From Vreelandella neptunia (GTDB lineage: Bacteria > Pseudomonadota > Gammaproteobacteria > Pseudomonadales > Halomonadaceae): a DNA stretch of 64,000 nt. The notes under the pieces were generated by a model, which saw only the letters and a program-made list of their open reading frames with translations, searched no databases and was not told where the DNA came from. Position 1 is the stretch's first letter. The number at the start of each line of letters is the position of its first letter. Made by a program: the position numbers and the translations under genes. The DNA lies in NCBI RefSeq assembly GCF_034479615.1, contig NZ_CP140255.1, forward strand, positions 1,612,001 to 1,676,000, read 5' to 3'. This document shows, piece after piece, positions 38,101 through 42,890 of the stretch.

Positions 38101-39012
38101 ATGATCAGACAACGCACCCTACAAAACGTCATTCGCGCCACAGGAGTGGGCCTGCATTCTGGCAAAAAAGTCCACCTAGCTCTGCGTCCGGCGCCGGCCA
38201 ATACTGGGATTGTGTTTGTCAGAACCGATTTGGATCCCGTTGTGCACGTTCCTGCCCGGGCAGAATTGGTTGAAGACACCAAACTATGCACGGCTCTTGT
38301 TTTAAACGGGGTTAAAGTAGCCACCGTTGAGCATCTGATGTCTGCCTTTGCTGGGCTGGGTATCGATAACGCCTATGTGGACGTCAGCGAACCTGAAGTG
38401 CCTATTATGGATGGTAGCGCGAGCCCATTTGTGTTTTTGATTCAGTCGGCGGGTATTTTGGAGCAGGATGCGGCAAAGAAATTTATTCGTATCAAGCACC
38501 GCGTAGCGGTGACCGATGGCGATAAAGAAGCGGTTTTCTTACCCCATCAAGGGTTCAAGGTCTCCTTTGCAATTGACTTTGATCATCCTGTTTTTGAGCA
38601 GCAGAAGCAGACCGCGTTGATCGATTTCTCGACTACGTCCTTCGTTAAAGAAGTTTCCCGTGCACGTACTTTCGGATTTATGCGCGACTTAGAGTTTTTG
38701 CGCTCTAATAATCTGGCGCTCGGCGGAAGTTTAGATAACGCCATTGTGGTGGATGATTACCGCATCGTTAATGAAGGCGGGCTGCGTTACGAAGATGAGT
38801 TTGTTAAGCACAAAGTATTGGATGCTATCGGTGACTTGTACCAGCTGGGTTATAGCTTGATCGGCGAGTTCCGTGGGGTAAAGTCGGGGCACGCTCTCAA
38901 TAATCAGCTCTGCCGCGAATTGATGGCGCAGCCCGATGCCTATGAGATTGTCACCTTTGAAGAGGAAAAAGCGGTTGCGCCGATCTCTTATGCCGCACCT
39001 GCAATGGCGTGA
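38101..39012 (+). CDS. lpxC: LpxC, UDP-3-O-acyl-GlcNAc deacetylase
   Basis: Zinc enzyme for the committed step of lipid A synthesis. The zinc ligands His78 (VEHLM), His237 and Asp241 (HKVLDAIGD) and catalytic His264 (SGHALNN) are all present, each one position below the E. coli numbering. Length 303. It ends the dcw cluster as in E. coli and Pseudomonas. Confidence 0.97.
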
Positions 39013-39129: not shown

Positions 39130-39591
39130 TTACTTGGTCGGCCGAGCATGAGATGCAAGCCGTTCCAAGGCACGTTTTAGCGCTGGATCGGCGGTGTCCT
39201 CAGCGCACTCGGAAAGGGTTTTGCCTGCGTCGGCCGACAGACTGCGCGTGTTACGCTTGGGTGCCACAAGAGGACGCACAGGGCGTACCTTAAAGGTAAA
39301 GCCGCTGACCCCTTCAAAGCCGGGCAGTTGATGGAGCAGTTCTAATAGGCGTCGTTGTTCAAAGCGTAACCACGTCAGCCAGCTCGCCTGGCCGCTAATC
39401 AGGGTTAAACGACCTTCGCTAAAGCCCCCCACAAAAATATGCTCCCGCATCTCTTCGGGCAAATGGGCGCGCAGGTGTCGTTGGGCCTGATCGATGAGAC
39501 GAGACAGCCGCATTAATTGATTAATATCGCTCGACTTCGATAGCAAGCGGGCGATGGGCTGGGCGTGCGAACGCTTAACCTTTATACTCAT
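39130..39591 (-). CDS. DUF721 (DciA-like) protein
   Basis: A 153-residue protein of the DUF721 family, which includes DciA, the loader of the replicative helicase in bacteria without DnaC. A basic N-terminal helix region (about 5-45) is followed by the strand-rich LRAHLPEEMREHIFVGGFSEGRL region (about 41-63), where the KH-like DciA fold is expected, and a low-conservation C-terminal tail. Whether this copy is a true DciA cannot be settled from sequence alone. It lies between lpxC and secA on the opposite strand, as its relatives do in Pseudomonas. Confidence 0.8.
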   Translation of the reverse strand: MSIKVKRSHAQPIARLLSKSSDINQLMRLSRLIDQAQRHLRAHLPEEMREHIFVGGFSEGRLTLISGQASWLTWLRFEQRRLLELLHQLPGFEGVSGFTFKVRPVRPLVAPKRNTRSLSADAGKTLSECAEDTADPALKRALERLASHARPTK

Positions 39592-39705
39592 ACGCTTAAT
39601 TCCCAGGGTGCTGCTGTTTTAGGCACCACCACGACTAATGACGTCGGCCACCTTCGCCGATGGCTGATTAGTTAACTTTACCACGCTCAGGAGCCGGTCT
39701 ACAGC

Positions 39706-40068
39706 ATGTCACCTACGCTTGATGTTCAATCAGCTTTGCCGCGGCGCCAGCGCCGTTACGGTTTAGCGCGTTGGTGGCTGGCCGGCCTGTTAGTGAGCTG
39801 CCTTTTACCCGCCAGTTTAAGCCCTACAGATGCATTCCGTGGTGGCGAGCGTAGCGTTACTATCTGTTTCTGGGTGCCGGCGATTTTGCGTGCGCAGTCC
39901 CACTGGGTCGCCAAACGACGGCGTGCCCTGCAACGTTGGGCGAAAAGCCCTCAGCGCTTTGCCCCTGTACGGCGTCTATGTCACTGGCTAGCCCCGATGG
40001 CTGTGCTGGTTGCCGCGCGGGATGTCTTGACCCAGCGCGGCCCGCCTTCCAGCCAAGCCTGTCGTTAA
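39706..40068 (+). CDS. Candidate SecM-like secretion monitor upstream of secA
   Basis: A 120-residue protein of unknown family directly upstream of secA on the same strand. It has an export-type N-terminus: basic residues (RRQRR, 13-17; R22) before a hydrophobic core (about 23-38) with a possible cleavage near Ala43. The middle is very basic (R/K-rich, 57-91), a second hydrophobic stretch covers about 94-104, and the end reads LTQRGPPSSQACR with RGPP at 111-114. E. coli SecM has the same plan: signal peptide, arrest motif ending RAGP four residues before the stop, and secA next. RGPP is, from memory, the core of strong SecM variants. The upstream Phe/Trp residues of the E. coli motif are not conserved at the same spacing, so this is a hypothesis. 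The start has an AGGAG site at a somewhat long spacing of 12 bases. Confidence 0.55.
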   Translation: MSPTLDVQSALPRRQRRYGLARWWLAGLLVSCLLPASLSPTDAFRGGERSVTICFWVPAILRAQSHWVAKRRRALQRWAKSPQRFAPVRRLCHWLAPMAVLVAARDVLTQRGPPSSQACR

Positions 40069-40157
40069 TACATCTACTTTGTGCATGCTGCACAGATAAG
40101 CAGCATGTACTGAAAGGGCAACGTCCGCTGGGACGCTCGTGAATATTTGGATATTTC
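40069..40157 (+). promoter_or_regulatory. Structured secM-like/secA intergenic leader
   Basis: Three hairpins are visible: CATGCTGC/GCAGCATG (40084-40091 with 40100-40107), CGTCC/GGACG (40122-40126 with 40131-40135), and AATAT/ATATT (40142-40146 with 40151-40155), the last holding the GG of the weak secA ribosome-binding site (TTGGA, 40147-40151) at its loop. In addition CCCAGCG (40031-40037), inside the upstream gene just before the RGPP codons, can pair with CGCTGGG (40126-40132), which would compete with the second hairpin. The layout could couple secA translation to ribosome position upstream. Confidence 0.4.
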
Positions 40158-42890
40158 ATGCTTAATAATTTATTACGTAAAGTCGTGGGTTCTAAAAACG
40201 ACCGCGATGTCAAACGCATGCACAAGAATGTGCCGCAGATTAACGCCTTGGAAACAGAGCTTGAGGCAATTAGCGATTCTGAGCTGCAAGGCAAAACCGC
40301 CGAGCTGCGCCAGCGCTTAGAAGCCGGCGAGTCGCTTGATTCGCTGTTAGCGCCCGCCTTTGCGATCGTGCGAGAAGCCAGTAAGCGTGTTATGGGTATG
40401 CGTCACTTCGATGTGCAGATGGTAGGGGGCATGACCCTGCACCGTGGCCGCATCGCTGAAATGAAGACCGGTGAGGGTAAAACCCTGGTGGCGACACTGG
40501 CGGTGTACCTGAATGCGTTGCCGGGTAAAGGGGTACACGTGGTCACGGTGAACGACTACTTGGCCCGCCGTGATGCCGAATGGATGCGTCCGCTGTATGA
40601 GTTCCTAGGCTTGTCTATTGGCGTCATTTTCTCCGGTCAGTCGGGCGAAGAGAAGCGTCACGCGTACCAGTGCGATATTACCTATGGCACCAACAACGAG
40701 TTCGGCTTCGATTATCTGCGCGATAACATGGCGTTCTCGTTAGAAGATAAAGTCCAGCGCGGCCTGCATTATGCGATTGTCGATGAAGTTGACTCGATTC
40801 TTATCGATGAAGCGCGTACGCCACTGATTATTTCCGGCGCGGTAGATGAGAATACCGACCTCTATAAAGTCGTTAATCAACTTGCCCAGCAGCTTGAAAA
40901 AGGCGAAGAAATTGAAGATGAGGAGGCCACGGTCGTCGGTGACTTCTTGGTCGATGAGAAGCAGAAGCAGGTAGAGTTAACTGAGCAGGGACATAATAAA
41001 GTTGAAGAGTTGATGCGCGCTGAAGGCTTATTAGGCGACGAAGAGTCGCTGTATGCCGCGCAAAACCTTAACTTGCTTCAGCATATGCACTCGGCGCTGC
41101 GCGCCCGCTATCTCTATCATCGTGATGTCGACTACATCGTCTCTGAAGGTCAGGTGGTGATCGTCGACGAGCACACCGGTCGCTCTATGCCAGGGCGCCG
41201 CTGGTCGGAAGGCTTACACCAGGCCGTTGAGGCCAAAGAGGGCGTCACGGTGCAGCGCGAAAGCCAGACGCTCGCCTCAACGACGTTCCAGAACTACTTC
41301 CGCCTGTATGAAAAACTCGCCGGAATGACCGGTACGGCGGATACTGAAGCCTTTGAGTTTCGGCAAATTTACGGTCTTGACGTGGTGGTTATTCCCACCA
41401 ACCGTCCATTGGCCCGTAAAGACCTCAACGATCTGGTGTATTTGAGCGCTGAGGAGAAGTACGAAGCGATCATCAAGGATGTCAAAACCGAGACCGAAGC
41501 CGGGCGTCCGGTGCTGGTGGGTACAGCGTCTATTGAGACATCCGAGTACCTTGCCAAGCTGATGCGCGAGGCGGGCTTGACGTTCAGCGTACTGAATGCC
41601 AAACAGCACCAGAGTGAAGCCGAAATTATTGCTCAGGCAGGCCGCCCAGGGGCGATTACGATCGCTACCAATATGGCCGGTCGTGGCACCGATATCGTTC
41701 TAGGCGGTAACTGGGAAGCCGAAGTTGCCAAGCTGCAAAACCCCAGTCAAGAGCAGGTTGAAGCGTTAAAAGTCGAGTGGCAAGCGCGTCACGATGGCGT
41801 TCTCGCCGCTGGCGGCCTGCATGTGGTGGGTTCTGAGCGCCACGAGTCCCGGCGTATCGACAACCAGCTGCGTGGCCGTGCTGGGCGTCAGGGCGACCCT
41901 GGCTCGACACGGTTCTTCTTGTCGCTTGAAGATAGCCTGATGCGCCTGTTTGGCTCTGACCGCGTCAAACGCTTGATGCAGGCATTGGGTCTTGAGCATG
42001 GCGAAGCGATTGAGCATAAGATGGTCTCGAACGCCGTTGAGCGTGCCCAGAAGAAAGTCGAAGGGCGTAACTTCGATATTCGTAAACAGCTGCTTGAGTA
42101 CGATGACGTTGCCAACGATCAGCGCCGGGTGATCTACGACCAGCGCAATGAGATTCTGGCCGCGGACGACGTGGCTGATGCTGTCATTGGTATCCGCGAA
42201 GAGGTGATGGAGACGGCTATCAGCGACTACGTGCCGCCCCAAAGCCTGCCCGAACAGTGGGATCTGCCCGGCTTGGAAGCCCACCTGAAGACGGAGTTCA
42301 ACCTTGACGCGCCGGTGGTTAAATGGGCCGCCGAGGATGATCGCTTTAGTGAAGAGCAGCTGCGTGAACGGCTGCAGACGATGCACCGCGAAGCCTATGC
42401 AGCCAAGATCGAGGCGGCTGGCGAGAAGTTGATTCGTCGCTTTGAGAAGCAGGTCATGCTGCAAGTGCTAGACACACGTTGGAAAGAGCACCTGCAGTCG
42501 ATGGATCATCTGCGTCGCGGTATCCACCTGCGTGGCTATGCTCAGAAAAACCCCAAGCAAGAGTACAAACGTGAATCCTTTGAACTCTTCCAGCATCTGT
42601 TAGAGCACATTAAAGCTGATGTGACGCGCATTCTGAGCCACGTGCAGGTTCGTCAGCCTGAGGAAGTTGATGCTCTTGAGCAACAGCGCCGCGAGGCGCT
42701 GGCCCGGGAAACCGCCACAGCGGCTAGCCGTCATGACGCTCCGGCCCAGGAGCAGTCCGAAACCGAGCAGGAGGCGCCTAGTGTCGATGGTCGCCCTGTG
42801 CGCCGGGAAGGCCCGAAAGTGGGCCGCAACGACCCCTGTTTTTGCGGCTCGGGTAAAAAGTATAAGCAGTGCTGTGGAAAACTAAGCTAA
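40158..42890 (+). CDS. secA: SecA, preprotein translocase ATPase
   Basis: Motor ATPase that drives proteins through SecYEG. Walker A MKTGEGKT is at 102-109; the second nucleotide-binding domain has [15 protein letters not shown]; the C-terminal zinc-binding domain [14 protein letters not shown], which binds SecB, is intact after a variable acidic linker. Length 910, close to E. coli (901). The ribosome-binding site is weak, consistent with translation controlled from upstream. Confidence 0.97.

Follow-up and report, generated by a model that had tools for sequence, protein, structure and literature searches.

A candidate secretion monitor encoded upstream of secA in Halomonadaceae, very probably of a published RGPP arrest-peptide group

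Fujiwara et al. (2024) searched more than 30,000 genomes and described, among the upstream open reading frames (uORFs) of secA, a group found in a subset of the Pseudomonadales, uA_RQH_Pseudomonadales (PMC10987492). The tested member of this group, with the motif R109GPP, stalls the ribosomes of E. coli and B. subtilis; its arrest fraction (fAP) exceeds 0.9 in the PURE system of either species, and toeprints of RQH peptides show the P site occupied by the third residue of the motif (PMC10987492). Across four peptide contexts, the most robust arrest generally comes from RGPP, a sequence that proteomes avoid (PMC12992588), and in RAPP peptides the A-site Pro-tRNA is held unreactive, which blocks the ribosome at the PTC (PMC10951233). 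The main-text sections of the paper describing the group, supplements aside, name no Halomonadaceae and leave its secA start structure, origin and extended motif untreated (PMC10987492). Literature searches combining Halomonas with arrest peptide, secA or secM, and translation arrest returned no paper, and no experiment on the protein considered here was found.

The window analysed here is a stretch of 64,000 nucleotides from Vreelandella neptunia, in which a short uORF without known function lies directly 5′ of secA, one of the traits by which the RQH group is defined. Re-reading of the sequence bears out the original description of this locus: a same-strand frame of 120 residues (39706-40068) stops 89 nt short of the secA ATG (40158), and its product has an export-type N-terminus (RRQRR at residues 13-17 and a hydrophobic stretch at about 23-38), a basic middle and RGPP at residues 111-114, followed by six residues (SSQACR) and the stop. 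Upstream of the uORF ATG, GGAG and ACAGC or ACAGT recur in most of 37 congeners. The features of the region are as follows.

38101-39012, upstream of the uORF: lpxC.
39130-39591, opposite strand to the uORF: DciA-family gene (PF05258), between lpxC and the uORF.
39689..39693, + strand: Shine-Dalgarno sequence AGGAG of the uORF, read from the sequence.
39706..40068, + strand: uORF for the 120-aa arrest-peptide candidate (secretion monitor); ATG start, kept in relatives, selection map.
39742..39840, + strand: putative export signal, residues 13-45, RRxRRxGxARWWLAGLLV[SG]CLLP...; pN/pS 0.13, two alignments.
39841..39930, + strand: conserved middle element, residues 46-75, ERxVxIC...PAxIRAxSRRxARRR across genera, predicted helix; pN/pS 0.19, alignment, AlphaFold.
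39931..40008, + strand: spacer, residues 76-101, variable in sequence; pN/pS 0.71.
40009..40047, + strand: candidate arrest motif VAAxDVxxxRGPP, residues 102-114; invariant residues, pN/pS 0.12.
40042..40044, + strand: Pro113 codon, expected in the P site when the ribosome stalls, with Pro114 in the A site; rule from RQH toeprints (PMC10987492).
40048..40068, + strand: six unconstrained residues after RGPP, plus stop; pN/pS 0.92.
40069..40157, + strand: RNA between uORF and secA, for which folding predicts no clear exposure of the secA start by a stall; ddG 0.08, 0.14, 1.17.
40147-40152, + strand: Shine-Dalgarno-like UUGGAU of secA, read from the sequence.
40158..42890, + strand: secA, the presumed regulated gene; Pfam SecA domains.

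The explanation that accounts best for this locus, and that we hold with high confidence, is that the uORF encodes a secretion monitor of the Halomonadaceae, a well-supported candidate that is very probably a member of the published uA_RQH_Pseudomonadales. The gene, its conservation, the pattern of selection along it and the single clade of its carriers are observed here; stalling and its chemistry would be as reported in the papers on its relatives, and we infer pull-dependent release and secA induction for this organism. In the proposed mechanism, the N-terminal signal would direct the nascent chain to SecA/SecYEG, where active export would exert a pull on the chain and release the stall, and on export failure the stall would persist and the translation of secA would rise. 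The link from stall to secA would be an unmasking of the ribosome-binding site (RBS), predicted for about a third of the relatives tested and not for the window. Since the third motif residue of RQH peptides occupies the P site, the stall of this uORF is expected with Pro113 in that site, and not with Gly112 as originally predicted (PMC10987492).

RGPP by itself is weak evidence, since the six frames of the window hold 391 open segments of 60 codons or more and these contain seven matches to RGPP, RAPP, RAGP or RAPG, three of which lie no more than 15 codons from a stop; conservation carries the case. The ORF and its C-terminus, on whose conservation in relatives the original prediction had made itself depend, are both conserved. 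Among 58 genomes searched, the gene is present in all 37 of the same genus, the window included, and in none of the 21 from other families. RGPP is found in each of the 37 congener proteins read (window included), residues A103, A104, D106, R111, G112, P113 and P114 are invariant among them, and secA follows 3′ of the uORF in 37/37. A profile search of the Halomonadaceae gave matches in 257 of 275 genomes, 20 of 24 genera and 80 of 82 congeners, a count of gene matches, the motif having been read in part of these 257 genomes; two of the 18 genomes lacking a match are congeners, 80% and 66% complete. The region upstream of secA was read in 30 genomes of 23 other Halomonadaceae genera and yielded 24 motif uORFs, 22 with RGPP and 2 with RAPP, while the six genomes that lack the uORF represent four genera (g35, g37, g41, g44). 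RAPP takes the place of RGPP in L078 and L082, which belong to two separate genera.

A second set of loci (the best 80 of 160 found) overlaps the first, as 19 of its proteins have an identical counterpart among the 37 congeners. In this set, RGPP is present in 79/80, with an Asp five residues before the Arg, and a secA match accompanies all 80. A C-terminal RAPP-like motif common to more than two uORFs of the order, another defining trait of the RQH group, is thereby found in 37/37, 24/30 and 79/80 (best 80 of 160). In L146 (Halomonas olivaria TYRC17), the match spans 358 nt and the reading frame is interrupted, by a sequencing error or because the gene is broken.

Outside the family, no credible RxPP uORF precedes secA in 20 of the 21 other families of the order, represented by one genome each; the remaining one, L110, has 94 nt of upstream sequence and was not judged, and two motif matches in L098 (RDPP and RSPG), which lie in short frames, were discounted. 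On a SecA tree of 57 rows, a branch with support 100/99 separates the 30 carriers from all other rows, so that a single gain inside the Halomonadaceae is the simplest history. Because the Halomonadaceae are the only sampled family with such a uORF, and because R109 is found in L081, L084 and L187, uA_RQH_Pseudomonadales is taken to be the Halomonadaceae family. From this identity, which we infer, the uORF family very probably belongs to the published group and hence does not form a new one. The reading of the locus as a secretion monitor in Halomonas-like bacteria is upheld, and its group is very probably uA_RQH_Pseudomonadales, which the family fits (PMC10987492). The gene found before secA is an M23 peptidase gene (PF01551) in 17 of the 21 other families sampled (among L094-L114) and in five of the six uORF-less Halomonadaceae genomes (L088, L089, L090, L091, L093).

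The product might instead be a very diverged orthologue of enterobacterial SecM and not an independent invention, as the uORF lies between lpxC and secA like E. coli secM (a DciA-family gene on the other strand intervenes here), its signal is basic with aromatic residues, and its spacer is about as long as in the short SecM class (median 71). The SecM profile PF06558 has no match in 37 family members at E<=1 and none in 38 relatives, where the E. coli control matches; this silence is weak evidence and weighs little, because the model is narrow and matches 0 of 143 genomes across the class, E. coli again being found. The comparison by hhalign with the single E. coli SecM sequence returned a probability of 0.2%, and the SecM arrest sequence F150xxxxWIxxxxGIRAGP does not occur in the product, which has AAxDVxxxRGPP in its stead; the Phe, Trp and Ile contacts of E. 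coli SecM are absent, and that they have no match at the same spacing had been recognised from the start. Orthology is further opposed by the carriers forming one clade within the family and by the M23 peptidase gene that stands before secA in most other families and in most uORF-less Halomonadaceae genomes read. With a narrow profile and a thin comparison, a very diverged SecM orthologue is rated improbable. Membership of SecM was considered as a classification and rejected, the profile and hhalign both being against it. The original wording, "independent or highly diverged", is supported and leans towards independent, given the profile result, the hhalign probability and the single clade of carriers. 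The product would work like SecM by analogy, and no descent from SecM is detected in its sequence.

The pattern of selection, computed from 17 of the 37 congener sequences chosen for their closeness, starts with a pN/pS of 0.56 for residues 2-12 and continues through the blocks listed above, of which the signal, the middle element and the arrest motif are constrained, the spacer varies in sequence and the last six residues are free of constraint. The abrupt loss of constraint after the second proline fits an arrest peptide, because residues past the stall point need do nothing. In 118 sequences, the codons of RGPP differ widely at their synonymous positions, and the constraint therefore acts on the peptide. 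It is very unlikely that the product is a small exported protein of the ordinary kind, with RGPP kept by chance or for another reason, since constraint ends right at Pro114 (from 0.12 to 0.92), RGPP is avoided in proteomes (PMC12992588), and the only change of the core among the 24 uORFs of other genera, which had been picked by R[GA]PP, is from RGPP to RAPP. What speaks for such a protein is the conservation of residues 46-75 (39841-39930), a predicted-helical element before the spacer that a pure arrest peptide does not need and in which it would be unexpected; arrest does not explain the constraint on it. The AlphaFold model consists of helices only (mean pLDDT 72.8, pTM 0.37), including a helix at residues 43-80 with block pLDDT of 82-94 within residues 51-80.

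The N-terminus combines a basic n-region with a conserved hydrophobic core, as judged from alignments and pN/pS. It contains Cys32 (39799-39801), which stands in a lipobox-like context and is invariant in both alignments (37 congeners and cross-genus). A strict lipobox is present in 32/37 and 78/79 sequences, and a PROSITE-like lipoprotein core in only 5/37 and 7/79; the signal may be of type I or of the lipoprotein type. The invariant Cys and the Arg stand 75-82 residues apart in 37/37 and 78/79 measured sequences (one was not measured), and the sequence in between drifts. From signal to arrest site there are about 70 residues, beyond the more than 30 that characterise the RQH group.

The step from stall to secA was approached by RNA folding, comparing the cost of opening the secA start site when the whole RNA can fold with the cost when a ribosome stalled at Pro113 leaves only the rest of it free. 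In its final form, the test began 45 nt 5′ of the Arg codon and covered 113 of 118 distinct sequences, those with longer gaps or short upstream sequence being dropped. With this form, ddG exceeds 2 kcal/mol in 36/113 relatives versus 7.6% of shuffles and 4 in 16/113 versus 2.3%, with a loss of more than 3 in none; as the relatives are not independent, these counts are not p-values. The E. coli secM-secA control gives a ddG of 4.2 with the 45 nt. The first form, starting from the Arg codon, gave 32/117 relatives versus 6.4% of shuffles and missed this control (ddG 0.14), so the final form was chosen after the control had been seen. For about a third of the relatives and for E. coli, exposure of the secA start by a stalled ribosome is thus predicted, a result that is new and purely computational.

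The congeners L030, L033 and L035 have a ddG of 4.7-8.5, and in L033 and L035 the RNA at and just past the RGPP codons is predicted to pair with the secA Shine-Dalgarno (SD) sequence. The RGPP codons themselves can pair with it, again by prediction, in the Chromohalobacter loci L168, L176, L180, L190 and L194 and in L072, which has a Chromohalobacter-like protein. The averaged opening curve drops over the 20 nt that begin with the Arg codon and changes little after that. Synonymous codon choice within RGPP favours SD pairing modestly (13.6% of 118 sequences at p<0.05, 3.4% at p>0.95), with the strongest rows in Chromohalobacter. The duplex between post-RGPP RNA and the secA SD stands out under mononucleotide shuffles (36% at z<-1 versus 1.6% for the next stretch, 61 sequences) and is a weak tendency, with a mean z of about -0.3, under dinucleotide shuffles in a strict position scan, and for this reason the opening-energy test was relied on instead. 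Conserved hairpins at the secA start were also considered as the switch and are not claimed, the result being mixed: in an alignment of 27 of the 37 congeners, ten having been left out by eye as not alignable, 89.8% of cells pair (7/500 shuffles as high) and there are four two-sided changes (11/500), the covariation score is 0.182 versus 0.178 (200/500), and the shuffles have more of the further pair types.

In the window, the ddG is 0.08 in the final form, 0.14 in the Arg-codon form and 1.17 with another start-site window, so that the SecM trait of a masked secA start freed by the stall, predicted in 36/113 relatives, is not predicted here. A strong 11-bp hairpin lies between uORF and secA at 40081-40110, with similar sequence in close relatives such as L005 and not in the genus at large. 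The arrest may be real and act here by a route other than a freed secA SD, such as translational coupling, mRNA protection, ribosome queueing or the synthesis of secA near the membrane, an alternative to which we assign an appreciable though minor share of the probability. It draws on the window's ddG of 0.08, on the mixed pair counts of the hairpins near the secA start and on L037, whose frame continues for another 44 residues after RGPP and shares 4 nt with the secA start, as would suit coupling. It is countered by the relatives, among them the congeners L030, L033 and L035, in which a stem joins the secA SD to RNA that lies at the RGPP codons or directly follows them.

Beyond RGPP, the secretion monitor can be given a fuller description, which we offer tentatively and regard as rather doubtful in its entirety: one origin in the Halomonadaceae, an invariant lipobox-like Cys, a conserved helical middle, a spacer of near-fixed length (Cys to Arg 75-82) and drifting sequence, and a dual role of the arrest codons in Chromohalobacter and some other genera, where GAGGUCC would also pair with GGAUYUC, the Shine-Dalgarno of secA. 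If true, the same nucleotides would encode, in these genera, both the stall and the switch that it throws. More broadly, the analysis very probably places in the Halomonadaceae a published arrest-peptide group that is named by its order only, and it suggests that this family gained the uORF once. It tells apart the parts of the peptide that are under protein-level constraint from those that need length alone, and suggests that the RNA switch 3′ of the stall has been repeatedly rebuilt while the peptide persists.

Compared with known systems, the uORF product shares with E. coli SecM the place of the gene, the plan of (here putative) signal, spacer and C-terminal arrest core, and probably the sensing of SecA. 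It differs in having no detected sequence homology and a shorter spacer, in its AAxDVxxxRGPP as opposed to RAGP with the F150/W155/I156 contacts, and in that unmasking of the secA RBS is computed for E. coli secM-secA and not for the window. ApdP and ApdA, compared here by core motif and gene place, have the RxPP core in common with it and presumably the same peptidyl-transferase block, whereas they lie upstream of secDF in Alphaproteobacteria and Actinobacteria (PMC10951233). The RGPP core is also found in uDF_RQH_Enterobacterales of Alteromonas, whose SD-masking stem has been shown experimentally to be undone by the stall; that uORF, compared in the same way, differs in lying upstream of secDF2. 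With uA_RQH_Pseudomonadales, as described in the main text of its paper, no essential difference is seen, both being secA uORFs of Pseudomonadales with an export signal (putative here), a C-terminal RGPP and a spacer of more than 30 residues (PMC10987492).
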